Shown here: in pieces, positions 3,246 through 46,318 of the stretch
Layout: each line of letters starts with the position of its first letter
How positions within the stretch are numbered: the stretch's first letter is position 1
NCBI GenBank assembly: GCA_027487795.1
Contig: JAIYCX010000015.1
Span: 1 to 64,000 of the forward strand
Origin: Pseudomonadota bacterium
GTDB taxonomy: Bacteria > Bdellovibrionota_C > UBA2361 > SZUA-149 > DAOLCO01
Length of the DNA stretch: 64,000 nt
Direction: 5' to 3'
Notes under the pieces: generated by a model
What the model saw: the letters and a program-made list of their open reading frames with translations, nothing else
The model's database searches: none
Told to the model about the DNA's origin: nothing
Made by a program: the position numbers and the translations under genes

Positions 3246-3253
3246 ATATTAGA

Positions 3254-3942
3254 AGATGAGATATCGGCTGAACGCACTGTCAATAAGCACAGTTAAAACA
3301 CGTTATTAAAACATGCAGTTCCGCCGATTTCATTTTCCAAATGTGAAAGTTAACTCCATTTAGAATTTGGGTAGATTCCATTCTCTGCTATTATTTGCCG
3401 AATAGCTGGGTGAGGAGGGGTTTCGCCATTTCTAATACTTGTAGAATGAATCTGCCCATACATTGGCATTATTTTCATTTCTACATTTAGTGCTGGCCAG
3501 TCTTTCCAGTCTTTTTCATTACCGGCGCTATCGGTTGAAGTGACCCAGCTATGCGGACTTTTGTAAGTCTGTCTCCACCATTTGATAAAATCAGCAGAGT
3601 ATTCGTATATGTGATCACAAAGATAAACATGAGCAGCTTTTGGTTTCCTTGAATAGGGGATTTTTGAATCTTTTAGGATCGCCTCCCACATGGAAAGTCT
3701 TAGTTCATGCTTAGCGGGTTGAATCTTTGTCTTCCACGGGTTTTTAAAAGTGGTAGCAATGACAACAAGACCTAGATGAATTGATCCCATTTCATCATGT
3801 AATGTTTTTACTACCTTCAAATGACCTTCATGTACTGGATCAAAAGTCCCACCATAAATAACCGCATCAAAAAACATGATCTTATTAGCCTTTCTGGCTT
3901 TAGTGTAAAACCTTCAGGTGCGCACGCACCGATATCTCATCT
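3254..3942. repeat. 14-bp perfect inverted repeat flanking the adenylyltransferase gene
   Basis: AGATGAGATATCGG at 3254-3267 and CCGATATCTCATCT at 3929-3942 are exact reverse complements on either side of the adenylyltransferase gene. The right arm touches a second palindrome, GGTGCGCACGCACC (3917-3930). These could be regulator binding sites, pairing arms in the transcript, or ends of a small inserted cassette. No target duplication is evident. Confidence 0.6.
3350..3877 (-). CDS. nicotinate/nicotinamide mononucleotide adenylyltransferase
   Basis: Joins NaMN (or NMN) to AMP, forming NaAD (or NAD+). The signature of the HIGH nucleotidyltransferase superfamily, GGTFDPVHEGH, is at residues 9-19, and the second family motif appears as HSTSIRNG near the C-terminus (ISSTxIR in NadD). 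At 175 residues it is slightly shorter than typical NadD (about 190-220). The start at 3877 follows AAAGG. NadD fits the context, because the neighbouring enzymes make NaMN and consume NaAD. Substrate choice between NaMN and NMN cannot be read from sequence. Confidence 0.85.
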   Translation of the reverse strand: MFFDAVIYGGTFDPVHEGHLKVVKTLHDEMGSIHLGLVVIATTFKNPWKTKIQPAKHELRLSMWEAILKDSKIPYSRKPKAAHVYLCDHIYEYSADFIKWWRQTYKSPHSWVTSTDSAGNEKDWKDWPALNVEMKIMPMYGQIHSTSIRNGETPPHPAIRQIIAENGIYPNSKWS

Positions 3943-4295
3943 CTAATAAAAATTTCAAAGAACAAATAATATTGTATAAATATACTGCTCATAATTTGAT
4001 TTTCCGTATAGGAAAAGCAAATTGGGAATTAGCAGTATGGCGTAGGAGCAAGAGCGACTAGCCTTAATACAAGTATAGTGCCCACAAGATAAGAATGCCT
4101 GAAGGGCTTCAACTCAAGTAAAACATGAGCTGAAAGCACTAAAGTCCTTCGATTCTGTCTTTAGAGCAGTATATTTTTATTAATACTCATAGCTTACGCT
4201 GCTTCGACCGTGCCACACTTATGATAAATTTGAAAAGCTTAAAACTCATATGTGGGCACTATATACAAATGGAGAAAATGGTGAGTTTAAAAAAA
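3878..4295 (-). promoter_or_regulatory. long structured leader or ncRNA upstream of the adenylyltransferase
   Basis: No gene is seen in about 400 bases between the PRPP synthetase terminator and the adenylyltransferase. Two long-range perfect inverted repeats interleave: ATATACTGCTC (3980-3990) with GAGCAGTATAT (4164-4174), and TATAGTGCCCACA (4074-4086) with TGTGGGCACTATA (4251-4263). This is a pseudoknot-like topology. The first arm can instead pair locally with AGCAGTAT (4031-4038), enclosing nested stems AATTTG/CAAATT and TTTTCC/GGAAAA. Alternative pairing suggests a switching leader. Near the gene a hairpin (3917-3930) is followed by GAAGGTTTTAC, as in other leaders here. No known riboswitch class is recognised. 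Confidence 0.5.
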
Positions 4296-4325
4296 CTTCG
4301 CGCGTATCAGTTGATATGCGCGAAG
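4290..4325 (-). terminator. intrinsic terminator of PRPP synthetase gene
   Basis: CTTCGCGCGTATCA (4296-4309) pairs with TGATATGCGCGAAG (4312-4325), followed in the minus direction by TTTTTTT. Confidence 0.85.
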
Positions 4326-4341
4326 GGATAACGTAAAATCC

Positions 4342-5310
4342 TTACAGCTGATACTTTCTGATCATCAGATCCGCGAGGTAATGACCAGTCGGAACAATTG
4401 TTACGAAATTTGGATACTGCTTAGCAAGCTCGTAGCTTGGGTAGGTATCACCACAGATTAATCCTGAAATTAGCTTAGAGTCAATCATTTTCCGAATTGG
4501 ATCTCCAGCAAAATCTGGGTGTGTTACCAGAACATAAACTTGAAACGCTCCTGCTTTTAGATGTGATTTGGCTCCATCGATTGCTGTTGATCCACCGCGA
4601 AGCATGTCGTCATAAAGAATTACAGTACAACCGCTTACATCTCCAATAACATTGCCCATAGTGTGAGTTTCGTTACTAGAAACTCTCTCCTTAACAACAA
4701 GGCCGTATGGTTCCTCTAGCATCTTGGCTAGCTTTATAATCGTATTCTTTCGGCCTAGGTCGGCAGATCCAATAGAAATATTTTTACCGAAAATTCGACC
4801 TTCTCCGGTATTTTGTTTTATTAAATCTGCCCAAAGTTGAAGACTAGAAATAGTTTCTGTGACAATTTGCCTGCGATCACAATAGAATTCCATTGTCTCA
4901 GCGTGCAAGTCAAAGAAGAAAACTCGCTTTCTAATACCAGAAGATGGGACATCTGAGAGTCTTTCACAAAGATTTTTTGCTGCAACAATATCTCCAGGAT
5001 GATCTCTGCGCTCTTTAGTGCCATGTCTCATAAATGCAATTAGAAAGTTCAATTCACTTGCCACTCTTCCAAGCTCAGTTCCGCATCCTAACATCTCTTC
5101 AACATCTAATCGGTCAGAACTTCCAATTACGACTACTTTTCGTCCCCGAGCTGCATCCATTTGATTTTCAGGAATTGCTCCCCAGACTTCTCCATTTGGA
5201 TGAGAACCTTCATTAAAAATTCCATCTTCGAAGCAGCCTGTTTTTAAGAAGGCATCTTTGATGTGTTTATAGCGTTTGGTACAAAAAACGATTGTCTTTG
5301 AATTTTGCAT
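4342..5310 (-). CDS. prs: ribose-phosphate pyrophosphokinase (PRPP synthetase)
   Basis: Makes 5-phosphoribosyl-1-pyrophosphate from ribose 5-phosphate and ATP. PRPP is the co-substrate of the nicotinate phosphoribosyltransferase encoded next. Seen: the FDLHAE motif at about residue 153 and the PRPP loop VILYDDMLRGGST at about residue 230, in a 322-residue protein (family 310-320). The start at 5310 has GGAGA upstream. It is divergent from typical housekeeping Prs (for example RLDVEEML in place of the conserved N-terminal run), so it may be a second, pathway-dedicated copy. It has its own leader and terminator. Confidence 0.88.
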   Translation of the reverse strand: MQNSKTIVFCTKRYKHIKDAFLKTGCFEDGIFNEGSHPNGEVWGAIPENQMDAARGRKVVVIGSSDRLDVEEMLGCGTELGRVASELNFLIAFMRHGTKERRDHPGDIVAAKNLCERLSDVPSSGIRKRVFFFDLHAETMEFYCDRRQIVTETISSLQLWADLIKQNTGEGRIFGKNISIGSADLGRKNTIIKLAKMLEEPYGLVVKERVSSNETHTMGNVIGDVSGCTVILYDDMLRGGSTAIDGAKSHLKAGAFQVYVLVTHPDFAGDPIRKMIDSKLISGLICGDTYPSYELAKQYPNFVTIVPTGHYLADLMIRKYQL

Positions 5311-5430
5311 TGCAATTTCTCCGCAATTTATTCAGCTAAAAAAAGAAAAACCTTATTCACCAATTTCTCCCTTTGCATTATTTAATGTTTAAAGTGAGAA
5401 TTTATTTCTACCCGAATTATCTAGTTGTAA
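5311..5430 (-). promoter_or_regulatory. prs promoter and leader (GGGTAGA box)
   Basis: In sense orientation GATAAT, then T, then CGGGTAGA (5414 to 5407). The next about 40 bases fold as one imperfect hairpin (5362-5402: AATTCTC with GAGAAATT, CTTT with AAAG, CATT with AATG), followed by GGTTTTTCTTTTTTT and then GGAGA before the start. It has the same order of elements as the nadE leader. Confidence 0.6.
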
Positions 5431-5459
5431 AAGAGCTTAAAAATATTAAAAAAATAAGA

Positions 5460-5492
5460 GGAAAAAGTCAGAGCCTTAAATAAGGCTCTGAC
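5460..5492 (-). terminator. intrinsic terminator of nicotinate phosphoribosyltransferase gene
   Basis: GTCAGAGCCTTA (5467-5478) and TAAGGCTCTGAC (5481-5492) are 12-bp perfect arms, followed on the minus strand by TTTTTCC. Confidence 0.85.
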
Positions 5493-5523
5493 TGTGCTTA
5501 AAACCATGCGAAACTATCTTAAA

Positions 5524-7062
5524 CTAGGTTGCCATACGAAGCTCTTCTGCTGCCTTACGTCGAGCATTAGTCACGAGTTCATTTCTTAGGTTATACAAAC
5601 GAGTTGTCATACCAACCGTGTAGAGATGAGGATTAACAAGTCTTAAACATTCTTCTGGCAGGGAGTTAATCTGCTCACGAATGAACTTAGAAACCTCATG
5701 AACTTCATCAATTGGCGCAACAATTTCACCATTTCTAGCTAATGGAATTAGTAACTCCTTTTCTGTGACTCCAGATGGGATTAAGCCTTCTCCGCTACTA
5801 TTCAAGTATGTCATCCAGCATTCGCTTTCGAATTTGTCCTCATCTATGTCATAGATACAATCAGCAATCATTTTTCCAAATCTGTCAAAATAGCGCTTAG
5901 CACCGAGTCTGCCAGGAGTAGAAAGTTTGATTTCTTGATCAGAAAGTTTAACCGTCGGTCTCATTTCTCCATCATCTCCTTCGACTGACGCAAGCTTATA
6001 AACCAATCCAAAAAGTCCAGACTCGGCAATCGCATCTCCACTCGCGTATGAATCCATTGGGGTCTTTGCTCTTTCGATCGAATCCAAAGAGAATTCGTTA
6101 AGAGAGTTCGTGCCTCTAACCTCAACGAAATCAAGCCCAACTGCATCAAGCATTTTTCTGGCTAGCTTTCCTAAAGCAGATAAATCTCCGCTATCTAGAC
6201 GAATTCCCTTAAGTTTCAGACCTTGGCTTTTCATTATAAGACCAACTTTGATTGCATTTCTGATTCCATTAATGGTGTTTATGGTATCAGGTAAAAAAAT
6301 CGAATTAGTTGGAAATGCTTTAGCAAAAGTTATAAATGATTGAACTTCCTCTTCAAAACTCATTGGCCAGCAGTGAGCCATTGTTCCTGACGATTTCATG
6401 CCGAAATACTGAGATGCCAGCATATTTGAAGTAGAGACAAAGCCAGCCTTCCACGCTGCAAGAGCTTTTGACAATGAGCCACCGGGGCCCCCACCGCGAC
6501 GGAGAGAGTTGTCAGCTAGTGGTTTCCAATTAGCAGAAATCAGCATCCTAACTGCTCTGGTCATTGTAGAAGATTGATCGCTGATAAGATTTAGAAGCGC
6601 ACCTTCGATCAGCTCGCACATCCAGATAGGGCCTTCAACGCGTACCATCGGTTCGTGAGGAAAGACTAAGGTTCCTTCCTTTACAGCATATACGTTACAT
6701 CTCCACTTTTCAGTTCTTAGGAACTCTATAAACTCTTTTTCGTAAAGCGGGTTTCCGTAATCATCAACTTTTTCTGAGAGCCATTCAAGATCTTCATCGT
6801 GAAATTTAGCAAGTGCTAAAAATTCATTTAAGTGATCTATGCCCCCAGCTACAGCAAATCCACCATTGGCAGGAATCTTTCTAAATGAAGCATAGAAAAC
6901 AGCTTTTTTATTTGCCATTCCTGCTTTCCACCAAGCATAGGCCATTGAAATTGCATACTCATCCCCGAACAAGAAAGAAACCTTACCATCTGGAAAAGAA
7001 GTTGTGATCGTAGTCCGGTGAATTCTGCGTTTTGCCTTTGGTTCTGACAATTCTATTGTCAT
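5524..7062 (-). CDS. pncB: nicotinate phosphoribosyltransferase
   Basis: Forms nicotinate mononucleotide from nicotinate and PRPP, the committed step of the Preiss-Handler pathway. Family signatures: a SLRRGGGPGGSLSKA run, GFVSTSNMLA, SGTMAHCWPMSF (GTMAHS in relatives), the phosphate-binding KGIRLDSGDL, and a C-terminal AKRYFDRFGK segment. Length 512 residues. I start at the ATG at 7062 because it has AAGGA 10 bases upstream; the frame extends six codons further to a TTG. Gene order (nicotinamidase, this enzyme, PRPP synthetase, adenylyltransferase, NAD+ synthetase) supports nicotinate rather than nicotinamide as substrate. Confidence 0.9.
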   Translation of the reverse strand: MTIELSEPKAKRRIHRTTITTSFPDGKVSFLFGDEYAISMAYAWWKAGMANKKAVFYASFRKIPANGGFAVAGGIDHLNEFLALAKFHDEDLEWLSEKVDDYGNPLYEKEFIEFLRTEKWRCNVYAVKEGTLVFPHEPMVRVEGPIWMCELIEGALLNLISDQSSTMTRAVRMLISANWKPLADNSLRRGGGPGGSLSKALAAWKAGFVSTSNMLASQYFGMKSSGTMAHCWPMSFEEEVQSFITFAKAFPTNSIFLPDTINTINGIRNAIKVGLIMKSQGLKLKGIRLDSGDLSALGKLARKMLDAVGLDFVEVRGTNSLNEFSLDSIERAKTPMDSYASGDAIAESGLFGLVYKLASVEGDDGEMRPTVKLSDQEIKLSTPGRLGAKRYFDRFGKMIADCIYDIDEDKFESECWMTYLNSSGEGLIPSGVTEKELLIPLARNGEIVAPIDEVHEVSKFIREQINSLPEECLRLVNPHLYTVGMTTRLYNLRNELVTNARRKAAEELRMAT

Positions 7063-7215
7063 TTTGATTGTATCCTTCAAAAAAAAACTAAAAAACCGAA
7101 TAATGAACCTTCTTCACTATTCCTCGTTAGAATTAAATATCAGAATTATATATCCGTATATTTTTCTAAAGAAGAATAGCTCTTTTACTTCTACCTAGAT
7201 TTAATTTTAAAAGAA
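7063..7215 (-). promoter_or_regulatory. pncB promoter and attenuator leader
   Basis: Sense orientation: AATTAAAT, then a one-mismatch box AGGTAGA (7196 to 7190). A hairpin GAATAGTGAA/TTCATTATTC (7098-7122) is followed by GGTTTTTTAGTTTTTTTTT, a classic intrinsic-terminator shape just before the AAGGA site. An upstream CTATTCTTC (about 7175-7183) could pair with the terminator's 5' arm as an antiterminator. From 7216 to 7374 I see only A+T-rich sequence without a gene. Confidence 0.6.
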
Positions 7216-7377
7216 CGAAAATAACGATATCTGACTTATCGCAGTCGAATATTTATCTAAAATATAGACTCCTTTTGTGGAGACTAGTAAGCGCAAATGG
7301 GGCAATAATTTAGTCTGGAATATATGTTGATTGTATGGTGTTAGTCAAGAATGGGGGTGGGTATTTAAGTTAAAGTG

Positions 7378-7410
7378 AAAAAACAGCTCAAGCATTATTT
7401 ACTTGAGCTG
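7378..7410 (-). terminator. intrinsic terminator of the PP2C-kinase-nicotinamidase-vWA operon
   Basis: CAGCTCAAG (7384-7392) and CTTGAGCTG (7402-7410) form a perfect stem, followed on the minus strand by TTTTTT. Confidence 0.85.
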
Positions 7411-7430
7411 GGATTGTTTCTAAGAAAATC

Positions 7431-7811
7431 CTATTTTTTCAAATCGCGACGTAACTGTGTTATAAAACTATTCCAAGTCTTTCCTTTCTCTTTCCAGATC
7501 TTGCTAATAACAGTTTTAGTGTCGTTAGCATCGATACTTTTTAGAGCAATCAAACATAGCTGGTGCCTGCGTTCATCGTTCTCGCGTTTAAGCGTGTAGA
7601 TAAGGTATCGCGCGACACTTTCTTTGTGAGTATTAATTCTCTTTTTGAGTGCGCCTAGAGCTAACTCAAAAGTGTCATTGAACTCCAGCATCTGTGCCAG
7701 TGCTGCGATTGCTCCAACATCCGTTAGCTTGTCTAGTTCCGCGACTAGTGCAAAGCGAAAATCGGATTTCAATGCAGCTAAAGCCTTTTTCTCAGTTTTA
7801 CTAAATGTCAT
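7431..7811 (-). CDS. small helical protein, last gene of the TerY-P-type operon
   Basis: 126 residues, rich in Leu, Ala and Lys, with successive amphipathic helices such as ALAALKSDFRFALVAELDKL and VGAIAALAQMLEF. They look like short HEAT-like or all-helical repeats, but I do not recognise a family. The ATG at 7811 is chosen because GGAGG lies 8 bases upstream; the longer frame would run through a hairpin. It follows the vWA gene in the same direction, separated by that hairpin (7870-7898), so its level may be set separately. A partner or adaptor for the vWA protein is only a guess. Confidence 0.65.
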   Translation of the reverse strand: MTFSKTEKKALAALKSDFRFALVAELDKLTDVGAIAALAQMLEFNDTFELALGALKKRINTHKESVARYLIYTLKRENDERRHQLCLIALKSIDANDTKTVISKIWKEKGKTWNSFITQLRRDLKK

Positions 7812-7869
7812 CTTAATAACCTCCACAAAAAACGTTATAGAAACAAGTTGTCCGTTAACAAAGAAAAGT

Positions 7870-7898
7870 GGGAACAGAGAAATTTGTTCTCTGTTCCC
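7870..7898 (-). terminator. strong intercistronic hairpin
   Basis: GGGAACAGAGAA (7870-7881) and TTCTCTGTTCCC (7887-7898) are 12-bp perfect arms between the vWA gene and the small helical gene. On the minus strand only ACTTTTCTTT follows, so it may be a partial terminator or an mRNA-stabilising or processing hairpin. Confidence 0.55.
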
Positions 7899-7951
7899 GC
7901 ACATTTGACCTTAAAAATTAACCTTTTGGGTTGCTTTTTCTTAGAAGCTTT

Positions 7952-8776
7952 TTAGAGCTTAACTTGGGAGAAAGCGTTCACGTCAGCGGCTTCAGATCCT
8001 GCAACTGCGGATTGGCTAACTTGTTGCAACCATGCACGAATTGCACTTGGATCATTTGGAAGCTTGCGAACGCAATCATCATCGAGTCCGCATTCCTGTC
8101 CGAAAGCCTTGTAATCAGTATAGCCATCATCGATGCCACCAAGATAAATCTTGTGACGTTCTTGTCGACGAAGGTCCGTTACCAGAGTTTTCACGTCAGC
8201 AGGTTTCGCATTTCCAGAGTTATTTCCTCCGTCTGTTAGAAAAACAGTGATCGTAAAAACGTCAGATCCGTCTTGAGTGTAGACGGTCGACTGTGCCTGA
8301 ACGGAACCAAGTACCCGAATCATCCCATCACAAAGAGGAGTATGACTCTCCATTGTAACTTTTTTTGGCATCGTGGTAAAGTTTGGGTTCGGAGTCTTGG
8401 CTGAGTGCCCAGGAAGGACCAGATCTTTGAACGGAAAGAATATCCCGTTATTTCCATTCGTCGGGATCAAGAACGTCGAATGTGCAAGAATAGTACTTGC
8501 AGCTTTCGATCCTGCCAAAGAACTGAAAATCAGATCGTGCCCATCGGCGGCGATTTCCCAATTGGATTGGCTTGCTCCAGGGGTCTTGTATTTCATTGAA
8601 TCGGAATTATCAAGATCTAGGGTGACCAAAATAACTCTCGCCACTTGTTTCTGAGCACCAGTTGCTAAAGCCGCATTGATTTCAGTTTGCAACCCGTCGA
8701 GGAGTGCTACTGAATCTGACGACAATTCGCCAAGACTTTCTGCTGTATCAAATAGGTCTGCTGCGTTAGAAATCAT
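7952..8776 (-). CDS. TerY-like von Willebrand factor A domain protein
   Basis: A 274-residue vWA domain protein. A metal-ion-dependent adhesion site is visible: VTLDLDNSDSM (DxSxS) near residue 55, a Thr in the middle (SHTPLCDG) and FLTDGGNNSG. The N-terminal ~40 residues are helical. In known TerY-P systems a vWA protein is grouped with a PP2C phosphatase and a kinase; all three are present here in one operon, so I infer it scaffolds or is a substrate of the pair. No Ter membrane protein (TerC) or TerD-type calcium-binding protein is seen in the window. No secretion signal, so cytosolic. Confidence 0.8.
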   Translation of the reverse strand: MISNAADLFDTAESLGELSSDSVALLDGLQTEINAALATGAQKQVARVILVTLDLDNSDSMKYKTPGASQSNWEIAADGHDLIFSSLAGSKAASTILAHSTFLIPTNGNNGIFFPFKDLVLPGHSAKTPNPNFTTMPKKVTMESHTPLCDGMIRVLGSVQAQSTVYTQDGSDVFTITVFLTDGGNNSGNAKPADVKTLVTDLRRQERHKIYLGGIDDGYTDYKAFGQECGLDDDCVRKLPNDPSAIRAWLQQVSQSAVAGSEAADVNAFSQVKL

Positions 8777-8845
8777 GATTTGTACTTTCGTTTGTTAATG
8801 TTGAAACAGGCCCTCACAGTGAGAGCTATTTTAGAATCACCAGAA

Positions 8846-8871
8846 AGAGCAAGGCTCTTAAGCCTTGCTCT
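8846..8871 (-). terminator. intercistronic hairpin between nicotinamidase and vWA genes
   Basis: AGAGCAAGGCT (8846-8856) and AGCCTTGCTCT (8861-8871) form an 11-bp perfect stem followed on the minus strand by TTTCTGG. The arm AGAGCAAGG recurs in the terminators at 15245 and 16559. It is probably a partial terminator or processing site inside the operon. Confidence 0.5.
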
Positions 8872-8892
8872 AATACTTTTCCCCAAATAAAC

Positions 8893-10014
8893 TTAAGCTG
8901 CGTTCGCAAGTGCTTCTTGCATCGCGCCAGGCCATTGTTCAATTGGAAGAGTTGAAGGAACGACATGCATTCCCACATCGCGGAAGTCTTGAAGAGCTTC
9001 TGCGGCTTGCTTTTCATATCCTGGCACTGGCGACATGCAGTCGACTAGCAAGTAGATCTTCGAAGCAAGAGCAGGATTCTTTGCCAAAACTCGGCGAAGA
9101 ATATCATAAATCCCTGCGCGAACACAGTGACTTGCTGCTTCTCCACCAATGATAATGATGTCATATGTCAAGATCATTTGGATGATCTTTTCAGAATCGC
9201 GCCCGACAGGATCTCCATTAAAGTCAACTGTTACTTCAGATCCAAACGGACTGTAAGCTTCAGTTAATTTATCGAGTCCCTTAACTTGTCCAATCATTCT
9301 ACCACCACGGGCAAACTGATGAAACATCACTGCTTCTTCCACTTCTGGAAACAAGGTAAATCCTTGGCTTCCCATTTGAGCGTGAAGCGGCCACAGGATC
9401 AGTGGATCTCGCGGCCGATCACGGTCTTCTCCGTTGATTTTGAAGATACGCGGTTCTGCGAGTTTATTGACGTAATACGCCAGATACTGCTCGAGATACC
9501 GTCGATCTTTGCCAATCCAATAAGGAGCGTGGGCCGAAGGCTCGAACTCCTGATAGTTGTCAACTGTGATTGCAGTAAACGGATCCGGATGTGCTTTTGT
9601 GGTCTTCCATTGCCACATCGGAGTGTGGAATATTTGAGGCACGAAGTGACTATCGAAAGTCAACATAGTATCCGTTACGACTTTCAGGTTCTTCATCAAG
9701 AACGTTGAGAATCGGTATGAATCATCCATCGCACCTGCTACAAAAAGCTCTGCATCGGGATGTCCAAAAGTATCCGCGTAATCAATCCCCATCAAGAGTA
9801 CCCTCTTCTTGTCATCTCGGGCAGGACTAAGGTTATGTGCCTTTGCCCATTTTGTTCCGAGTTCTAACAATCCATCTCGTGCGAGAGCGGGAGCTCCGAC
9901 GAGGTTGGCAATAAAGGGATTTGCCTGATACCAGGGTCTACGACCATGGCCAGTTGCTTTTTTGGGGAACCAATCTGGAATAGGCAATGCAATCGAATTT
10001 GTCGCTGTAGACAT
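8893..10014 (-). CDS. nicotinamidase-like cysteine hydrolase
   Basis: Predicted to deamidate nicotinamide to nicotinate, feeding the pncB-encoded enzyme. The isochorismatase/nicotinamidase fold is recognised by the catalytic Asp78 (GIDYADTF), metal-ligand FDSH (Asp121, His123), WPLH (His211), the VKGxxxxxxAYSPFG segment (Lys245) and the nucleophile in GGEAASHCV (Cys297). At 373 residues it is much longer than usual nicotinamidases (about 180-220), with an N-terminal extension and inserts. The ATG at 10014 has AAGG 10 bases upstream. It sits between the kinase and vWA genes of a TerY-P operon. Another isochorismatase-family substrate is possible, but the surrounding pathway favours nicotinamide. 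Confidence 0.8.
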   Translation of the reverse strand: MSTATNSIALPIPDWFPKKATGHGRRPWYQANPFIANLVGAPALARDGLLELGTKWAKAHNLSPARDDKKRVLLMGIDYADTFGHPDAELFVAGAMDDSYRFSTFLMKNLKVVTDTMLTFDSHFVPQIFHTPMWQWKTTKAHPDPFTAITVDNYQEFEPSAHAPYWIGKDRRYLEQYLAYYVNKLAEPRIFKINGEDRDRPRDPLILWPLHAQMGSQGFTLFPEVEEAVMFHQFARGGRMIGQVKGLDKLTEAYSPFGSEVTVDFNGDPVGRDSEKIIQMILTYDIIIIGGEAASHCVRAGIYDILRRVLAKNPALASKIYLLVDCMSPVPGYEKQAAEALQDFRDVGMHVVPSTLPIEQWPGAMQEALANAA

Positions 10015-10070
10015 AACAAAACAACCTTTCAAAACTTAAAGAAACTTTAGCAATCACGACGTTGTGACTA

Positions 10071-12062
10071 CTACTTGGTACGAACAGTGTGAATCTGTCC
10101 ACCACGTATGCGGTAGAGGACATCTTCGTAAAGCAAGCGGTCGGTTGGTAAAACTTCCCCGGCTCCTGCTTCAAACTTCATGGCTTCAACGAGTTTTCCT
10201 CCTTGATCCATAACTCCGATGAGTGCGTCATCAGTAGCGGCCAACAGGCATTCAATCCTTTGGCCCTTTGAGCCCTTAAGCTGAGCCGCGCATTTTCCTA
10301 AATGGATAAAGCCGCTCAGCCAAGCATGGTCTGGATCTCCCTGCTCGACGCTCAATGATGATACGCATTCTCCGTTTGGTTTAATGACAAAGCAAGTGTT
10401 ATAAAGCACTCCTTTATCATCGGTGGTAACTAATAACCATGCTCTTGTTTTTGTAAAATATGCAGATGCATGTCGAAGTGTTCCACTTAAATCTGGCATG
10501 TTATTGACAGATACAGAACCTCGACCATCGACATTGAAGACTTTCAGCTTTTGAAGTCCACTTACAAAATAAAAAGCAAGTCCAATAGTTTCACCAACCC
10601 AAAGAAGGGTTTGGTTTGCTAGGGTTTCATCAATATATTCTCCCTCTGATGTGTTGGTCTCCTTAATTAGTTGACCACTTCTCAAATAAAAAATATCTTG
10701 ATGGTTTGCCCCATACTGAGGAGCTTTGCCACGAAACTTTTCTGCATTTATGCGAGCAGGATTCTTTCCTGGGGTAAACTTAATCGTATTCCCATTCATA
10801 GAAAGTACTGTTCGATCACCACTGATTGCATAATCGAGATCTCTCTCGATATTTTTTTTCAGTCCAATTGGACCAAATTCTCGGTGAAACTCTCCGTCCT
10901 TGTGTGCTAAGTAACGAAGTTTCGCATCTTGAAAACAAGCTGACAAGATTTTGGCATTACTAAGATCTAAGATCTTTTCCACGATAAAGCCCTTTGTAAT
11001 TGTAGCAACCGTTATTACACTTGGAGTAGGAGCGGCGCAATTAGGACAAGAACTTCGAGCATGATACTTTCCACATTTAGAACAATTAGTCCAACGAGTG
11101 TTTTCAAGCAATTTTCTCATACTCTCGCCTCGCACATCCCTGTGCAGAAGTTTATCGTAAAAGTGGAGCATATCATCTGGGAGCATACTAAAATGAGTTG
11201 CCCATGCGGGATATCTCACTTCTGGATGCATCGCTGATACTCTCTTCAGAGCTCTCTCATTAGGACGAACGCCCTGAATCTTAAGATCCTTCGTTTTTAA
11301 CGGTAGTACGCCTTCCCACGGCCCGATATACAATGTAGTAAGCCAATAGATTAAAGCAAAAGAATACAAGTCACTATTGATAGAATGCGGCTTTGTCATA
11401 ATCAATTGATCTGCTTGACAAATTAATGGATCAACAAATCTCGGAGTAAATGTTTCGCAATAAAACATTTTCCCACTTGAATCTGTCCATTGTGCTGCAT
11501 CTGCATCAATAATGTAGACTTTTCCATCCGGAGTAACGATTTGGTTATTATTATTCACATCTCCAAATACTAAACCCTTTGGATGGCACTCTTCGATGGT
11601 ATTTAGCCAATCAAGGTGAAAGTCACGAACAGTATTGTTGTCAATATTATTCTTTTCTCTGAAGTCAATATCGGCAAAGTCTGCCATGATATTTCCTTGA
11701 ACAAAAGGCATTTCATAGCCAATTACCCAGCGCTTTACTGGTTTGACTCCTTTTGCTGTATTTTTTACAGCGCTTGTTGCTGCGCTATATACAAGAGTAG
11801 AAGGACCAATAACTCGATCCGGTAACCATTTAGGAAATGCAGGCAACTTTTTCTGATGTACCTTTAATCTTCGAAGTGCACCGAGCTGATTGCGTTTCGT
11901 TTGTTCAGGATCACCTGGCGAATTATATATCGGATCGTTTTTTCCTCTGTAGAGCTTGACGATCTTTCCATTTACAAGAAATACAATACTTTCACCACCT
12001 TCTCCAAACGGATTATTTGGATCAATGGTGATTGGCAAATCATTTATGTAGACAGTAATCAT
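10071..12062 (-). CDS. protein kinase with zinc ribbon (TerY-P-type)
   Basis: 663 residues. Kinase-fold motifs: glycine loop FGEGGES at about 19-25, Lys36 in IVKLYRG, catalytic loop FGDVNNNN with Asp168, and IDAD at 185-188 in place of DFG. A zinc ribbon CxxC...CxxC occupies residues 327-342. About 320 residues of strand-rich sequence follow, possibly a beta-propeller or sensor region. The kinase-zinc ribbon order is typical of the kinase of TerY-P triads. The ATG at 12062 lies 13 bases after the PP2C stop; the longer frame overlaps that gene and is rejected. It probably phosphorylates the vWA protein or a common partner, opposed by the PP2C enzyme. Confidence 0.8.
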   Translation of the reverse strand: MITVYINDLPITIDPNNPFGEGGESIVFLVNGKIVKLYRGKNDPIYNSPGDPEQTKRNQLGALRRLKVHQKKLPAFPKWLPDRVIGPSTLVYSAATSAVKNTAKGVKPVKRWVIGYEMPFVQGNIMADFADIDFREKNNIDNNTVRDFHLDWLNTIEECHPKGLVFGDVNNNNQIVTPDGKVYIIDADAAQWTDSSGKMFYCETFTPRFVDPLICQADQLIMTKPHSINSDLYSFALIYWLTTLYIGPWEGVLPLKTKDLKIQGVRPNERALKRVSAMHPEVRYPAWATHFSMLPDDMLHFYDKLLHRDVRGESMRKLLENTRWTNCSKCGKYHARSSCPNCAAPTPSVITVATITKGFIVEKILDLSNAKILSACFQDAKLRYLAHKDGEFHREFGPIGLKKNIERDLDYAISGDRTVLSMNGNTIKFTPGKNPARINAEKFRGKAPQYGANHQDIFYLRSGQLIKETNTSEGEYIDETLANQTLLWVGETIGLAFYFVSGLQKLKVFNVDGRGSVSVNNMPDLSGTLRHASAYFTKTRAWLLVTTDDKGVLYNTCFVIKPNGECVSSLSVEQGDPDHAWLSGFIHLGKCAAQLKGSKGQRIECLLAATDDALIGVMDQGGKLVEAMKFEAGAGEVLPTDRLLYEDVLYRIRGGQIHTVRTK

Positions 12063-12075
12063 GTTTTTCTCATAC

Positions 12076-13026
12076 CTATAAAGTGTGGATGCGTTTGCCA
12101 ACTATCAACGTTGTATCGTCGAGTAGTAATCCAGGTTCACGAACCATTCGTGCTTTTTTACCTGCTGCTTCTTCTTCGGGTTTTGGTTTGATCATTCTAC
12201 AAGACTCATTATTTATCTGCCGAAAGTAGAGATCAAGAGTGTCATCTTTATAGAAATCGTCATTGTTCCAAAGATTTTGCAAGGGACAGACCAACTCTGT
12301 TCTCCCGGGCATTTTTTTTCCAACCGCGGACATGTAATGAACAAGTCCATCTGTCCCAATTAGAAAATTATCAAGCTTACCTGGTGGTACATACCGATGG
12401 ACAACAGTGTTCATCAGCTCAGGTTGATCTTGAAATTCGTTTGGTACAAAACGATAACAAGGCGAAATGGGTTTGTTGCCAAGTTGCGGTTCGCGCACGA
12501 CAACCTCCCCATTCACCGCGAAAACTCCATCTGAGCCTTTAGGCCCAAAAATCCAGGTGCCAAATTCTTCAGTATGAAGAACCCCAATTAACGTAAAGAT
12601 AAAAAGTTCTCTTAACGTTCGTCGGAAGCTTTCGTCATCTGGACCAAGAGCCATCATTAATGTGCTTAATGGAGCAAGAGCATTATTGTCTACTCTCGCC
12701 CAGAAAGCCGCGGGCAAAGGATCGGATTCTAACTTGTGTCCTTGCTTTTTAGCCTCGGCAAGTACTGCCCTAGCTCGATTAAACTCCCGAGAGAGTGTCG
12801 TGTAGTAAAGACGTACTGCGAGCTTAGAACCGACCTCTGCATCGACCGCGCTACTAACGCCGTCACTCACCAAACATATCAATGGTTCAGGTGGCCAGCG
12901 CACTGGCTCAGCAGAATTTTGCTGAGTAAACAGGAATGCATCCTGATTGTTTTTACCAATCAAAACTGTTCCCAGTCCGAGGTGCGCAGTTCCTGGAACC
13001 GAAGTTCCTTTAACATTGAAAGTCAT
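12076..13026 (-). CDS. PP2C-family serine/threonine phosphatase
   Basis: 316 residues with PP2C metal-binding motifs in order: NQDAFLF near residue 26, LVSDGVSS, IGTDGLVHY, and a terminal DDTTLIVG. First gene of the operon phosphatase-kinase-nicotinamidase-vWA-small helical protein. The ATG at 13026 is chosen over an upstream in-frame codon because the leader hairpin occupies the sequence before it. Expected to reverse phosphorylation by the kinase encoded next. Cytosolic; no membrane segment. Confidence 0.85.
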   Translation of the reverse strand: MTFNVKGTSVPGTAHLGLGTVLIGKNNQDAFLFTQQNSAEPVRWPPEPLICLVSDGVSSAVDAEVGSKLAVRLYYTTLSREFNRARAVLAEAKKQGHKLESDPLPAAFWARVDNNALAPLSTLMMALGPDDESFRRTLRELFIFTLIGVLHTEEFGTWIFGPKGSDGVFAVNGEVVVREPQLGNKPISPCYRFVPNEFQDQPELMNTVVHRYVPPGKLDNFLIGTDGLVHYMSAVGKKMPGRTELVCPLQNLWNNDDFYKDDTLDLYFRQINNESCRMIKPKPEEEAAGKKARMVREPGLLLDDTTLIVGKRIHTL

Positions 13027-14115: not shown

Positions 14116-15177
14116 TTATTTTTTTAGACTATACCAAACAGCACGAGCTTTGCCATACCTTGTAATTAGCTTACTTTCTACCAGCTCCCTGAGACGAACT
14201 TTTAATGTGTTTTTATTAGCATTCGCAATTGTTGCTAAGTCAGATATAGTTAGGCGTTCGTGCTCGTTTAACAGCTCTAATATTTTTTGTGATAAAATAG
14301 GAAGATTTTTTAAATCTAATTTTTCTGTATTATCATTACTTGAAACTTTAACTAATAAATTATCTTTTTGTTTTTTTAGAGATCTTAGGAAAAAACTGAT
14401 CCAAGGATCCCAATCTGATGCCTCAGTTTTTAAGGAGCTTTGAGTTCGTCTTAAAGCTTTATAATATAAATCTTTATTTTCTTCGATTATGGATTCTAAC
14501 GAGCTATATATTACATAATCATATTTGAATTTTATTAATATTAACGTCGTGAGTATTCGGGAGAGTCGTCCATTTCCATCTTGAAATGGATGAATCGCTA
14601 AAAATGTAACTATGAAAATAGCTAAAATTAGTAAGGGATGGTAGCTTTCTTCAAGTACTGCCTTATTATACCATTTGACTAATTCTTCCATTTCTCTGGG
14701 GGTTTCAAATGGTGTAGCGGTTTCAAAAATAATTCCTATTTCTTTGCCATGCTCATCTATTGCTACGACATGATTTGGAAGTTTCTTATAGTCTCCTCTA
14801 TGACGTTCATCTTTTGAACTATGCCTTAACAATAGTTGATGAAGTTGCCTAATATGATTTTCGCTAATATTTAAATCATCTGATGAGAGGAAAACAAGAT
14901 CCATAGCTTCTGCGTAGCCTGCTACTTCTTGTTCGTCGCGGTCTTTAAATGATTGAATTTTTAAATTTGATAGTAGTGTTTCTACTTGAATGTCAGAAAG
15001 CTTAGATCCTTCTATTCTGGTTGAAGAGCCAATACTTTCAATGGTCGCCGTTTTTTTTAAGAATTTTAGCCTATCAGGGGGTAGATTTTTAAAAGCCTCC
15101 CATTTCCCTTTAAATTCATCTATTTCAGAGATTAATTTAAGAAAATCTTGGCTTATTAGTAACTTAGGTTCTTTCAT
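14116..15177 (-). CDS. Fic-domain adenylyltransferase with self-inhibitory motif and C-terminal winged helix
   Basis: 353 residues. The Fic active site HPFQDGNGR starts at His196, so AMP transfer (or another nucleotide transfer) to a protein hydroxyl is expected. An inhibitory helix motif SxxxEG (Ser52-Gly57 in SSTRIEG) places it among Fic proteins inhibited by their own N-terminal segment. The last about 70 residues form a winged helix (LTISDLATIANANKNTLKVRL), so it may bind its own promoter. Convergent with the TrmB-like gene (10-bp gap). Targets are unknown; kinase, PP2C or NAD+ enzymes nearby are candidates only by position. Confidence 0.9.
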   Translation of the reverse strand: MKEPKLLISQDFLKLISEIDEFKGKWEAFKNLPPDRLKFLKKTATIESIGSSTRIEGSKLSDIQVETLLSNLKIQSFKDRDEQEVAGYAEAMDLVFLSSDDLNISENHIRQLHQLLLRHSSKDERHRGDYKKLPNHVVAIDEHGKEIGIIFETATPFETPREMEELVKWYNKAVLEESYHPLLILAIFIVTFLAIHPFQDGNGRLSRILTTLILIKFKYDYVIYSSLESIIEENKDLYYKALRRTQSSLKTEASDWDPWISFFLRSLKKQKDNLLVKVSSNDNTEKLDLKNLPILSQKILELLNEHERLTISDLATIANANKNTLKVRLRELVESKLITRYGKARAVWYSLKK

Positions 15178-15232
15178 TTATTTTTTCGGCTCATTGGTAT
15201 ACCCGATTATACCCGATTATACCCGAATTGTA
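15178..15232 (-). promoter_or_regulatory. three tandem CGGGTATAAT repeats before the Fic gene
   Basis: At 15199-15228 the unit ATACCCGATT (sense AATCGGGTAT) is repeated three times with a 10-bp period, 22-51 bases upstream of the Fic start. Each repeat carries a TATAAT-like hexamer next to CGGGTA, the core of the GGGTAGA box of other genes here. The one-turn spacing would put all copies on the same helix face, as in cooperative operators. Confidence 0.6.
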
Positions 15233-15237
15233 AATTA

Positions 15238-15284
15238 AAAAAAGAAGAGCAAGGAAGATTGGAAACCAAATCAACCTTGCTCTT
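15238..15284 (-). terminator. intrinsic terminator of duplicated gene copy 1
   Basis: AAGAGCAAGG (15245-15254) pairs with CCTTGCTCTT (15275-15284) and is followed on the minus strand by a run of seven T interrupted by one C. An almost identical terminator ends copy 2 at 16559-16598. Confidence 0.8.
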
Positions 15285-15309
15285 GGAGATGGAATTCGAA
15301 TTCAACGAT

Positions 15310-16044
15310 TTACTCGCCGCTGAGTTTTCTCTCTTTTAAGAAAAGCAATTCTTCGTTGCTGAACTGAGATACTGAAACTGTAAAGAATTGGATATCTTTT
15401 ACTTTCATCACTTCTTGTTCGGCGAACTCTGGTAATGTAGTTTCAGTGCCCTCAGACCGGATTTCATTGGGAGCGTTCTTTTCAAAAACAACTAACCAAA
15501 CTTTTCCATCTAGCTCGATAAGTTTTCTTTCGATAACCAAAGTTTGTCCGTGCTCTTTCTTAGGAGGCTGGATGCTTGACTTTAGAATAACGCCAGTCTC
15601 GCAAAGTCTGCGACCGAAAACTGTTCTCGCTTCTTGATCTTTTGCTATCTCTAAATCAAGTCTCTGCTTTTGTAATTCTGACTCAATTTTAAGCTGAGCA
15701 GGATCTATGAATTTGTCTTTAATTTTTCGAACAACTGTGTGAAATTCATATCTTCCATCAAACTTGTTGCCGCTAATCAAAGTTTTTTCTAGATCGAGCT
15801 CTCTCCGAAATAACTCATCCTCTATGCTGAATCCATAGAGTTTTGAACGCAACTTGCAAATTGCCATGTAGCGGCGGTAATCACTTATCGCGGTGCTAAT
15901 TTCCAGCCGATACTCCTTTTTTTTCTCAGGTGGCAATTTAATGCTTGGAAAATAGTACTCTTTTATTAAACGATACAGATTGTGATCGTAAAAAGAAAAA
16001 GATAGTGTATACAACAGCAAAACTACGATACATAGAATTTCCAT
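15310..16044 (-). CDS. membrane-anchored coiled-coil protein, duplicated gene copy 1
   Basis: 244 residues of unknown family. One N-terminal membrane segment (EILCIVVLLLYTLSFSFY), then charged helical sequence likely to form coiled coils, then an alpha/beta C-terminal part with LVIERKLIELDGKVWLVVF. The ATG at 16044 is chosen because AGGAG lies 7 bases upstream, exactly as in copy 2; a nearer upstream ATG would be only one base from it. It is a paralogue of the next gene: shared VIERKLIELDG/IVERRLVELDG and PSIKLPPEKKKEYR/PTIKLQPELRKEYR. Function unknown. Confidence 0.75.
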   Translation of the reverse strand: MEILCIVVLLLYTLSFSFYDHNLYRLIKEYYFPSIKLPPEKKKEYRLEISTAISDYRRYMAICKLRSKLYGFSIEDELFRRELDLEKTLISGNKFDGRYEFHTVVRKIKDKFIDPAQLKIESELQKQRLDLEIAKDQEARTVFGRRLCETGVILKSSIQPPKKEHGQTLVIERKLIELDGKVWLVVFEKNAPNEIRSEGTETTLPEFAEQEVMKVKDIQFFTVSVSQFSNEELLFLKERKLSGE

Positions 16045-16375
16045 AACCATTCTCCTCTCGAGTACCGCTCGATACGGTCGCCATATAGGCGAAGACTTTA
16101 TTCTCCTTTTACTCGCCGCTGGCGATAGGAGAAAAAATATTTTTTGCTGGCATATAGCCAACTCATGGATACAACATAGCATCCACTTGAAATTAAATTT
16201 TAATTTATATCAAGTGAATGCTACGTTGTTGTCCGTATATTAAAGTCTTAAAAAACCTTTTACTTCCTTGCTCTTACTTTTGTGTAAGATTGTCTAGTGT
16301 TTTGGCTGCAGCTTATAGACAACTATGCACAAAAGAATTTAGAGCTCTTCTACCCAATGTTTAATATTAATTTTA
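16045..16375 (-). promoter_or_regulatory. long conserved structured leader of duplicated gene copy 1
   Basis: The box TGGGTAGA (16356 to 16349) opens a leader of about 310 bases nearly identical to that of copy 2. Visible stems: ACAACATAGCATCCACTTGA (16171-16190) with its imperfect complement at 16210-16229; a TCTCCTATCGCC/GGCGAG...GGAGA stem around 16100-16140; GTCGCC/GGCGAA near 16077-16095; and GTACCGCTCGATACGG next to the ribosome site. A T-run starting GGTTTTTT occurs at about 16249-16256. From 16376 to 16556 I see only A+T-rich spacer. Confidence 0.65.
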
Positions 16376-16552
16376 TATGTTTTAATGCTGGTCATATTTA
16401 TATTTTTCTGTAAATTGGTCAAGTATTATTCGTGTGGGAGTTTTTATTCAATAACTTCAAATACTTGTCAGTATGTAATATCTTACTCCACTATACCGCT
16501 CTTTGTCTAAATTTCCAGAAACGGAAATTCAACTAAGATAGGTGTAAATTAA

Positions 16553-16598
16553 AAAAAGAAGAGCAAGGAAGATTGGAAACCAAATCAACCTTGCTCTT
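16553..16598 (-). terminator. intrinsic terminator of duplicated gene copy 2
   Basis: Arms at 16559-16568 and 16589-16598 as in copy 1, again followed by a T-rich run on the minus strand. Confidence 0.8.
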
Positions 16599-16624
16599 GG
16601 AGATCGAATGCGAATTCAACGAAT

Positions 16625-17392
16625 CTACGAAACGAGGAGTTCTTGGTCTTTTAAGTCATTCAACTCTTGTAGACTCAACTGAGACAATGTTTTAGTTACA
16701 TAGACGATATCCTCTACATTCATCATTTCTTGCCCAGTCATTTCACGTATCAAAGTATAAATATTCTCCAGCTGGACCTGGTTGTCTGCTGTATACGCTG
16801 AATACTTTGAGTTATTAGAGCCGGAGTCCTTTCGAAATGCAACTAACCAATTTTCGCCATCAAGCTCTACCAAACGTCTTTCGACGATATGGGCAGGTGT
16901 TGTCTCGTCAAGGTGTGACTCTTTATCTGGATGTAGATAGACCCATGCCTTGATTATAGTGCCTGATTCGTAAAGCCTTTTTGACAGAAGTGCTCTAGCG
17001 AGTTCTGCTTCCTTTTTTTCATTTTTGGCTTTTTCGACTAGCAACCTTTCGTTTCTTTCGCTGAACTCTCGTTGCAATCGGTCCAGCATACGATCTGGAA
17101 TAAAATAATTCTTGTCCCAGGCGCCAAGAGAAGTTTGTTCCTTATCTAGTTTTCTCCTTTTCAGTTCATCTTCTAAAGAGCTGGTCTTCAGTTTGGAAAG
17201 CTCCTTCCTGATTTTCTTAAAGCGGCGATAATCGTTTCTCTTTCCTAGGACTCTCTCGCGATACTCCTTTCTTAACTCAGGCTGTAGTTTGATAGTTGGA
17301 AACCAACTCTCTCTTTCGAGATCGTTCCAGACAACAAAATACACAAAGGCTACAAACAGCAACACAAAAACAATCAGCACAAAAACCGACAT
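16625..17392 (-). CDS. membrane-anchored coiled-coil protein, duplicated gene copy 2
   Basis: 255 residues, paralogue of the gene at 15310. N-terminal membrane segment (SVFVLIVFVLLFVAFVYFVVW), a PTIKLQPELRKEYR element, charged helices, and a C-terminal part with IVERRLVELDGENWLVAF. The ATG at 17392 has AGGAG 7 bases upstream. The whole unit, leader to terminator, is duplicated in tandem (about 15233-16356 and 16550-17709), but the proteins have diverged far more than the leaders and terminators. Its promoter lies directly behind the SLOG-like operon. Confidence 0.75.
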   Translation of the reverse strand: MSVFVLIVFVLLFVAFVYFVVWNDLERESWFPTIKLQPELRKEYRERVLGKRNDYRRFKKIRKELSKLKTSSLEDELKRRKLDKEQTSLGAWDKNYFIPDRMLDRLQREFSERNERLLVEKAKNEKKEAELARALLSKRLYESGTIIKAWVYLHPDKESHLDETTPAHIVERRLVELDGENWLVAFRKDSGSNNSKYSAYTADNQVQLENIYTLIREMTGQEMMNVEDIVYVTKTLSQLSLQELNDLKDQELLVS

Positions 17393-17730
17393 AACAAATC
17401 TCCTCTCGAGTACCGCTCGATACGGCCGCCATATAGACGAAGACTGTATCCTCCTATTTACTCGCCACTGGCGATAGGAGAATAAAAAAACTATTTGCCA
17501 GCATATAGCCAGCTCATGGATACAACTTAGCATCCACTTGAAATTATATTTTTATTTATCTCAAGTGGACGCTATGTCGTATGTCATTATAGTTTAGTCT
17601 AAAAAAAACCTTTTACTTCCTTGCCCTTACTTTTGTGAAAGGTTGTCTACAGTTTTGACTACAGCTTATAGACAACTATGCACAAAAGAATTTAGAGCTC
17701 TTCTACCCGAGATGTTATAAAAGCGTATAC
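17393..17730 (-). promoter_or_regulatory. long conserved structured leader of duplicated gene copy 2
   Basis: TATAAC, ATCT, CGGGTAGA (17709 to 17702) opens a leader closely matching that of copy 1, including the long stem 17522-17541 with 17561-17580. Differences from copy 1 within the stem mostly give G-U pairs on the minus-strand RNA, so pairing is largely kept. GGTTTTTTTT at about 17602-17611. Confidence 0.65.
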
Positions 17731-17799: not shown

Positions 17800-18714
17800 C
17801 TACGAAACTGGCGTTAGTAAGCCCAGTTCGTAATGTGCCTTTGCGAAAGTGCTTGCGCCGAGGTCTTCCAAGTTTTCGTCAAACTTGGCGATCCGGACAA
17901 GATCAGAGAAATTGATTTGATCAACGTAGTCTCTCTTACCAAGTTCCACATTCAGCTCACGACCTTCCGTGTTAAAGCTCTCTTCGAAAAGCTCTTTCCA
18001 CTTACCTTCAAGGTGGGCTGTTGCCAAGCGATCGGCAGAGCGTTCGGTTCCTTGAATGATAATGATCGGAATTCCATTCAACAAAGCGAGTAGTGCTTCA
18101 TCGAGAGTGACGTCTCCTCCATTGCAAATCGTCACAGCGCACTTAAATCCGTGTCGCATGCAAGACTTCATGAAAGAAATGTAAACCCTAAGATCACCAG
18201 ACCAAGAAAGAACTTCTTTCACGTCTTCTTGTACGACCATTGCAGCATGCTGTTTGGTGTCAAGACCCGTACCGTAGCTATCTACAGTAACTCCGCCGGT
18301 AACTCCAGTATCAATTCCCATTCGTGCTGTACGAGGGGTAGTTGAACCTGAGATACAATTGAAGATGCGCGCCAAGTAAGCTGGGACATTTGTAACAGCA
18401 TTCGTATCAGTTCCACCGCTGAAGCAGTATCCTTGAAAAACATGCTGAACTCCGTTAGCCTCAAAAACACATCCTTTAGCGAAGTAGCCAAAAAGAACCG
18501 GCATCTTAGCTTTGATAGGACCCTTGCATCCGCCAGCGACCCGAATGACTACCCTTGCAGGTGCTCGTTCAGCTTCGCCAAGTAGCATTGTTGAAATCTC
18601 GCTATCGTCCACATTGGCCACATCAAACGCCATTGATTTTCCAGAGTTCGGAATCATCAAGGGAAGTTCAGAGATGGCAGCATACGACAAATCAGCAGGT
18701 AGTTGAAATTTCAT
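17800..18714 (-). CDS. SLOG/LSDAT-like nucleotide-sensor protein
   Basis: 304 residues. Rossmann-like strands with glycine-rich turns: VVIRVAGGCKG near 60, GYCFSGGTDTNAV near 97, and a late AVTICNGGDVTLDEALLALLNGIPIIIIQGTERSAD. The last pattern (Gly-Gly turn, then helix, then PIIII-Gly-T) is like the SLOG superfamily, and the overall shape like its LSDAT branch (prokaryotic relatives of the TRPM N-terminal domain). Family knowledge: SLOG domains bind nucleotide ligands, including NAD+-derived ones. No membrane or enzymatic partner domain is fused. Second gene of a two-gene operon with another SLOG-like gene, gap 5 bases. Confidence 0.55.
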   Translation of the reverse strand: MKFQLPADLSYAAISELPLMIPNSGKSMAFDVANVDDSEISTMLLGEAERAPARVVIRVAGGCKGPIKAKMPVLFGYFAKGCVFEANGVQHVFQGYCFSGGTDTNAVTNVPAYLARIFNCISGSTTPRTARMGIDTGVTGGVTVDSYGTGLDTKQHAAMVVQEDVKEVLSWSGDLRVYISFMKSCMRHGFKCAVTICNGGDVTLDEALLALLNGIPIIIIQGTERSADRLATAHLEGKWKELFEESFNTEGRELNVELGKRDYVDQINFSDLVRIAKFDENLEDLGASTFAKAHYELGLLTPVS

Positions 18715-18719
18715 CTTGT

Positions 18720-19499
18720 TTATTCTTTCATCTTAGGAACGCCAAGCTCATCGAGCTTGAAATTAATTGATTCCACATCGCACAGTGCGCTGTGAACATT
18801 TGGGTACTCAGCACGGAAGGACTCGTTTTTAGCAAGTTCTTCCGTCATCCGGCCACTGTCTTCAATTAACAGTACCGGCCAACCTAACTTTGCGTGAGCT
18901 TTAATTTCCTTCGCTGTTTCAGCTCCTCCATTAAATGAAACGAGTAATGAACCCCAGCGTCGTCGAAGTAAACGTTCGATAACACTCAGGCATTCTTTCC
19001 ATTCCTGTGACCAATCTGAATGGTCATCAGGACTTGTCTGAAGAAGAACTGCAAGAGCTTGATGTGGCACCATTCTAGTAAAATAGCCATGCTCTGGCTC
19101 AACTAGAATAATGTTACCAAATTTTTGAGTCACTTTCAGTCTGTCGACTCTTGGCGTAATTGCGAATAACGCCATAGTCTTATCATCTAAGCAAGACTCC
19201 TTAGCCCAAAGCGGCACCGACATTATTGTCGGAATGACTTCGTGCGGGGGAATCAAACTACGAATCTCAGTCCCTCCAAATAAAAAAGCGCCGCGGCGCT
19301 TTTTAAATACTTCTCCAAGAATGGGAAGTTTAGCTCTTTCTTTAGCTTCTCCAAAACCGGACATGCCGGTAAAGCGAGTAGCAAAAGTAGGTAGTCCAGC
19401 TCTCGCAAATTCGAAAGCTTTCTCAACTGATTCCTCAGTTCCAGACTGAATCAATACTTCCATAGCTCGAAGGAGCCAGTCAGGTATTGGAACACTCAT
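18720..19499 (-). CDS. second SLOG/LSDAT-like protein
   Basis: 259 residues. Same pattern as its neighbour: GAFLFGGTEIRS near 90, a middle strand-rich part, and SLLVSFNGGAETAKEIKAHAKLGWPVLLIEDSGRMTEELA near 190-230, equivalent to the NGG...PIIIIQGT segment of the downstream gene. It starts with PIPDWLLRAME; the nicotinamidase N-terminus also has PIPDWFP, probably coincidence. The start at 19499 has AAAGGG upstream. First gene of the operon. A ligand such as ADP-ribose or a cyclic derivative is an inference from family and context. Confidence 0.5.
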   Translation of the reverse strand: MSVPIPDWLLRAMEVLIQSGTEESVEKAFEFARAGLPTFATRFTGMSGFGEAKERAKLPILGEVFKKRRGAFLFGGTEIRSLIPPHEVIPTIMSVPLWAKESCLDDKTMALFAITPRVDRLKVTQKFGNIILVEPEHGYFTRMVPHQALAVLLQTSPDDHSDWSQEWKECLSVIERLLRRRWGSLLVSFNGGAETAKEIKAHAKLGWPVLLIEDSGRMTEELAKNESFRAEYPNVHSALCDVESINFKLDELGVPKMKE

Positions 19500-31550: not shown

Positions 31551-31682
31551 ACTATAATAGTATAATGTTTTATACTATTAGTAAAGCTCTATTTTTTATT
31601 CTTAGTTAAAATAATTTAGTAAGTGTGACCTATGCAAAACGCTATAAGTCACAGTTTGGGATTGGAAAATTGAAGCCCGTAT

Positions 31683-46304: not shown

Positions 46305-46318
46305 CTCCACCTTTTTTT

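Follow-up and report, generated by a model that had tools for sequence, protein, structure and literature searches.

A candidate class of bacterial single-gene mRNAs whose leaders are complementary to their own 3′ ends

The leader shared by the tandem genes F1A and F1B, found in a stretch of bacterial DNA of 64,000 nucleotides (the window), appears to belong to a class of bracketed mRNAs, each with a gene-specific leader segment (X) whose reverse complement (X*) lies in its own 3′ untranslated region (3′UTR). As anatomy the finding is strong: common sequence boxes, a local hairpin (P2), the complementarity of X and X*, an overlap through which P2 and the X:X* helix exclude each other, and a mostly single-gene layout can be read directly from the DNA. 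We think it probable that X:X* acts as a fold-back clamp that alters completed mRNAs. With distinctly less confidence, and as a proposal that could well fail, we suggest a lineage-wide regulon: a common 5′ GGGUAGAAG/AAGGUUUU signature would bring dozens of unrelated mRNAs, each of a single gene, under one control, together with a helix between the two ends that evolved separately in each and would sense transcript completeness. If this is true, pairing between mRNA ends can serve as a general layer of control, an unfamiliar RNA-binding factor is implied, and nature offers many replicates for the study of transcript-completion sensing.

Results

The F1 pair and its untranslated regions

F1B and F1A form tandem units on the minus strand (Table 1). 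Their proteins share 35–40% amino-acid identity (dN 0.58, dS 1.80) and, as the sequence-only reading of this DNA had noticed, the leaders are kept better than the proteins: the 5′UTRs are 89% identical, 34 of the 316 alignment columns being substituted and 5 gapped. That reading missed the 3′UTR with its terminator, where conservation exceeds that of the 5′UTR (2 substitutions in 82 columns). The 65 nt 5′ of GGGTAG are 37.5% identical between the copies, which is the level of chance. Taken together, the identities of the UTRs, flank and coding regions indicate that the conserved stretches run from the putative transcript start to the start codon, and from the stop codon to a little beyond the terminator. 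Relative to synonymous sites, the 5′UTR has evolved approximately 15-fold more slowly and the 3′UTR approximately 70-fold more slowly. The leader was also considered as a coding extension, and this was rejected: although the frame is open 5′ of the ATG in both copies, the changes are mostly non-synonymous and include internal frame shifts.

Both leaders fold far better than shuffled sequences (z scores in Table 1). The 20-bp stem described earlier is present in both; in copy B it carries three changes of G-U type and a single mismatch. When the structure of one copy alone was used and the substitutions of the other were compared with random placement of matched types, 5 pairs are broken versus 11.9 expected (p = 0.003) and 9 versus 17.1 (p = 0.002), the p values ranging from 0.002 to 0.008; the reverse strand gave no comparable effect. 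Selection on RNA structure, as first proposed, is therefore upheld, on the sense strand alone, and the sequence comparison supports the F1 leader as a transcribed, structured RNA under selection. The suggestion of a new cis-regulatory RNA survives only in part: a structured RNA under selection it appears to be, but not a stand-alone leader peculiar to this gene pair, as its first ~105 nt are those of a recurrent class. The 20-bp stem emphasised earlier sits in an extra domain absent from other class members, a structured addition of ~200 nt downstream of the box and before the ribosome site.

Neither 46 phylum genomes nor 383 broader ones yielded a homologue of the F1 proteins, and no homologue of the F1 RNA came from the 46 phylum genomes, where covariance models of the 5′ domain (R1) and the 3′ domain (R2) returned F1 itself and weak hits judged to be chance. 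Rfam 15 covariance models gave no match in the window at the gathering score, and a single spurious miRNA match (mir-989, E = 0.67) at a relaxed threshold. Since no orthologue of F1 was found, the classical orthologue test was impossible, and the homologue test was run instead across unrelated genes with the same leader architecture and across families of paralogues.

Two neighbouring SLOG-type (LSDAT_prok) genes lie immediately upstream of F1 (17800–19499). Immediately downstream is a Fic/DOC gene (14116–15177) whose best match is the SoFic defence model; just 5′ of it, a ATTATACCCG-like sequence occurs three times in tandem (15200–15226) and is a possible operator.

Table 1. Coordinates of the F1 features and of further class members in the window
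Feature	Position	Strand	Remarks
F1B unit	17708–16543	−	
F1A unit	16355–15229	−	
F1B ORF	16625–17392	−	255 aa; N-terminal membrane helix and coiled coil (low-confidence model); no family
F1A ORF	15310–16044	−	244 aa; F1B paralogue
F1B 5′UTR	17393–17708	−	starts GGGTAGAAG (putative transcript start); conserved with F1A, flank random; fold z −6.2
F1A 5′UTR	16045–16355	−	conserved with F1B; fold z −7.3
F1B segment X	17616–17634	−	AAAAGTAAGGGCAAGGAAG; overlaps 3′ arm of hairpin P2
F1A segment X	16263–16281	−	AAAAGTAAGAGCAAGGAAG
F1B box	17603–17614	−	AAAAGGTTTTTT; class motif
F1A box	16250–16261	−	AAAAGGTTTTTT
F1B 20-bp stem	17522–17580	−	extra domain
F1A 20-bp stem	16171–16229	−	extra domain
F1B 3′UTR and terminator-like hairpin	16543–16624	−	97.5% identical to F1A
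F1A 3′UTR and terminator-like hairpin	15229–15309	−	
F1B X*	16553–16571	−	CTTCCTTGCTCTTCTTTTT; 3′ arm of terminator-like hairpin and T-run
F1A X*	15239–15257	−	3′ arm of terminator-like hairpin
Leader, NAD synthase-like gene	3143–3238	−	X 3172–3189; X* 1005–1022
Leader, ribose-phosphate diphosphokinase-like gene	5311–5413	−	X 5357–5378; X* 4263–4284
Leader, inositol-monophosphatase-family gene	32469–32549	−	X 32506–32527; X* 31613–31634
Leader F3a	41545–41639	+	X 41545–41560; X* 42929–42944
F3b (F3a paralogue)			X 43226–43241; X* 46293–46308
Leader F2a	60667–60777	+	X 60720–60737; X* 61208–61225
Leader F2b	61368–61475	+	X 61422–61439; X* 61897–61914; one C-G to U-A change vs F2a

Anatomy of the class

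A typical unit has GGGTAGAAG at or near its 5′ end, followed by hairpin P2, the gene-specific X, a AAGGTTTT box, usually a single ORF, and a 3′UTR containing X*, the reverse complement of X over 9–25 nt. The leader start has the consensus GGGTAGA(A/T)G and is preceded by AT-rich sequence. P2 is more stable than its shuffles (median z −3.4, as against −0.3 for matched upstream control segments). In F1B, X can pair with X* at 18 of 19 positions, a score with p ~0.001 relative to shuffled leaders.

When X was sought over whole leaders with no restriction on its position, it ended a median of 4 nt 5′ of the box; in 30 of the 34 significant sites the end fell between −8 and +20 nt of the box, where 29% would be expected. 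Of these 34 sites, 32 have X overlapping the P2 3′ arm and 6 the 5′ arm. Since X shares the 3′ arm, P2 and the long-range helix are mutually exclusive, and X* in effect mimics the 5′ arm of P2 and reaches over the adjacent single-stranded stretch. This arrangement is, as far as sequence can tell, the layout of a strand-displacement switch. The predicted median energies are comparable (P2, −20 kcal/mol; X:X*, −17 kcal/mol).

Ahead of X*, the 3′ side often has a further AGGTT box together with a local hairpin. In several genes a terminator-like hairpin precedes X*, which may therefore not always be transcribed. Almost all units are monocistronic. The encoded proteins are diverse and of ordinary size (95–685 aa); many are orphans, and others belong to the NAD synthase, PRPP synthetase and inositol phosphatase families, apparently core metabolism among them.

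Members in the window and beyond

Nine upstream regions in the window carry GGGTAG in the sense orientation, among them those of NAD synthase-like, ribose-phosphate diphosphokinase-like, PP2C-like and inositol-monophosphatase genes. Two further sets of tandem paralogues (60778/61476 and 41640/43460–46215) have UTRs better kept than their coding sequences. In all the tandem paralogues of the window X complements the X* of its own 3′UTR, and the leaders start with GGGTAG, or GGATAG in one copy.

Several other observations concern the window itself. An island of NAD-related genes (1130–13026; NAD synthase-like, nicotinate-nucleotide adenylyltransferase-like, PRPP synthetase-like and nicotinate phosphoribosyltransferase) lies beside kinase and PP2C genes, several of the genes being individually bracketed. 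The first 20 kb are atypical in base and tetranucleotide composition. An intergenic palindromic repeat family of ~124 nt occurs in three places (46316–46441, 47827–47949 and 55397–55520; 84–92% identical). A long hairpin, CCTCCTATCCTTCCTGTT...AACAGGAAGGATAGGAGG, occupies 42961–43037, and similar sequence is found elsewhere in the genome, on contigs C57, C33 and C61 near 67 kb.

In stretches sampled from the same genome (847 kb of 3.2 Mb, with simple ORF calling), GGTAGA, GGGTAG, AGGTTT and GGTTTT are among the most sense-enriched upstream hexamers, and GGGTAG followed by WGGTTT occurs upstream of genes 14 times in the sense and once in the antisense orientation. Against a null of non-cognate 3′UTRs from the same genome, cognate 5′/3′ complementarity reached p ≤ 0.02 in 9 of the 13 testable units of this genome (binomial ~3e-13). 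In a genome of the same order and another family (G005), 3 of 11 units reached p ≤ 0.05, with perfect matches of 16, 13 and 12 nt. Elsewhere in the same genome as the window (L091, G000:C57:1-9998), three tandem paralogues of ~240 aa have conserved UTRs and a variant leader motif, GTGTAGAAG; their X:X* is retained with G-U changes.

A search of the phylum for the leader pattern led us to fetch 40 sites from 20 genomes and to seek X* within 400 nt past the ORF; it was present at p ≤ 0.05 in 17 of the 40. In some genomes the sites had been chosen by eye, because a hairpin could be seen in them, before the 3′ side was inspected. When X had to lie in the 30 nt preceding the box, p ≤ 0.05 was reached by 37 of 58 units (~3 expected) and p ≤ 0.1 by 43, figures that rest on simple ORF calls, on paralogue sites that are not independent and on a mixed-genome null that may be biased by base composition. 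About one third of the leaders bearing the motif have no significant X*. Members also occur in other orders of the same taxonomic class (G037, 12 nt; G039, 21 nt). The reversed-pattern control was clearly exceeded across the phylum in G000, G003, G005 and G007 only. A tight form of the leader pattern matched 58 times in 85,000 genomes, nearly all in unrelated phyla, and ~58 matches were expected by estimate; as a negative control, leaders with the same pattern in other phyla gave significant X:X* in 2 of 56 cases.

Discussion

A proposed fold-back clamp

We suspect that the two helices form in succession. P2 would fold first, during transcription; once the 3′UTR had been made, X* would pair with the unpaired 3′ portion of X and oust the 5′ arm of P2, and the resulting X:X* helix would clamp both ends of the mRNA together, in the manner of the hok fold-back. 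The clamp would alter the stability or the translation of complete, intact mRNAs, probably through a putative factor that reads the common GGGUAGAAG and AAGGUUUU boxes. We infer that X* is co-transcribed with the gene and that X:X* forms in the cell, replacing P2 after transcription. F1 would add to this scheme its structured domain ahead of the ribosome site. The X:X* helix usually leaves the ribosome site uncovered, and since X lies upstream of that site, nothing indicates direct occlusion or a translation block in the style of icaR or aapA. A possible pairing of the F1 Shine-Dalgarno sequence with the 3′UTR (UCUCC opposite GGAGA) is not significant (p 0.05–0.45).

The long-range helix could instead be a processing or termination device, either a substrate for RNase III or a split intrinsic terminator to which X contributes the 5′ arm. 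We regard this as unlikely. It would fit the F1 X*, which forms the 3′ arm of a terminator-like hairpin with a T-run after it, and the T-runs that follow several other X*; RNase III does cut the 5′/3′ pairing of icaR (PMC3868564). Yet at least four T within 12 nt after X* occur in only 8 of the 34 significant cases, many genes possess a local terminator-like hairpin of their own as well, and neither the shared boxes nor the overlap with P2 is explained by such a device.

Nor does it seem probable that the bracket is a feature of the DNA, in which X and X* would be structural inverted repeats at the ends of single-gene cassettes, acted on by a recombinase or transposase on folded single strands. 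A cassette origin would account for units that are nearly all monocistronic, for the many orphan proteins, for ends shared by tandem paralogues (F1, F2, F3, C57) and for the atypical composition at the start of the window. But X is gene-specific, unlike the terminal repeats that recombinases recognise or the inverted repeats that copies of a transposon share. The orientation of the units relative to the gene is fixed (14:1), the F1 fold is preserved on the sense strand alone, and apparently core metabolic genes are included. Mismatches point the same way when they lie inside the helix: 20 are G-U and 4 A-C on the mRNA strand, and the changes in X:X* between paralogues comprise one double compensatory change (C-G to U-A), six of G-U type, none of A-C type and two that break a pair. 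Counted over all mismatches, alignment tails included, the ratio of G-U to A-C does not exceed that of non-cognate pairs (cognate 38:23 versus non-cognate 165:107; Fisher p = 0.88). Fixed gene orientation and the sense-strand effect in F1 also favour pairing in RNA over pairing in DNA.

A third reading makes the F1 leader an ordinary cis-regulatory element that acts alone and whose complementarity to the terminator is incidental. It would suit the strong local fold and a 20-bp stem kept with G-U changes; we consider it very unlikely, as the same 5′ architecture, each time with its own X*, stands at many unrelated genes and the F1 3′UTR is better conserved than the 5′UTR. That the F1 UTRs are similar only because the genes were duplicated or converted recently, and that they have no function as RNA, is scarcely credible: the genes are indeed tandem duplicates with near-identical 3′UTRs, but conservation ends where the transcript or the coding sequence has its limits, substitutions are biased toward keeping pairs on one strand, and the architecture is also found outside duplicates. 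The fold-back clamp is the preferred reading.

Comparison with known systems

To our knowledge, pairing between the 5′ and 3′ ends of one bacterial mRNA is confined to a few single cases, mostly toxins. Broader parallels exist. In precursor rRNA the leader and trailer of the transcript pair in processing stems that bracket the gene and serve as substrates for RNase III; the class, however, consists of short helices around single protein genes, with no rRNA. Integron gene cassettes with their attC sites are likewise single-gene units, many of them orphans, in which structure is kept over sequence, but the helix arms of the class bracket the gene and its boxes are unlike attC core sites.

Closer to the class is the icaR mRNA of Staphylococcus aureus, in which the 5′UTR and 3′UTR of an ordinary gene base pair (PMC3868564). 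There, a single gene places a UCCCCUG motif on the Shine-Dalgarno sequence, whereas the class has many genes and a gene-specific helix beside fixed boxes. The aapA/IsoA mRNAs of Helicobacter form sequential local hairpins and then a long-distance 5′-3′ interaction (PMC6733600); the long-distance helix of aapA masks the Shine-Dalgarno sequence, whereas X lies upstream of the ribosome site, which is usually free.

By analogy, the nearest worked-out mechanism is that of hok of plasmid R1, in which the 5′ region first folds, while transcription is under way, into a metastable hairpin and afterwards pairs with the 3′ end through the tac/fbi fold-back (PMC3868564, PMC6733600). As in hok, a 5′ segment of the class mRNAs complements the 3′ region of the same mRNA, and a competing local 5′ hairpin shares a strand with X (32/34). 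Where hok encodes a small toxin (with an antisense antitoxin), the class is made up of diverse genes of ordinary size with shared GGGTAGAAG and AAGGTTTT boxes, and no small membrane toxin was found among the class genes examined (95–685 aa, metabolic families included). In its anatomy, then, the class appears to resemble hok and aapA, yet the genes concerned are ordinary single ones with sequence boxes in common.
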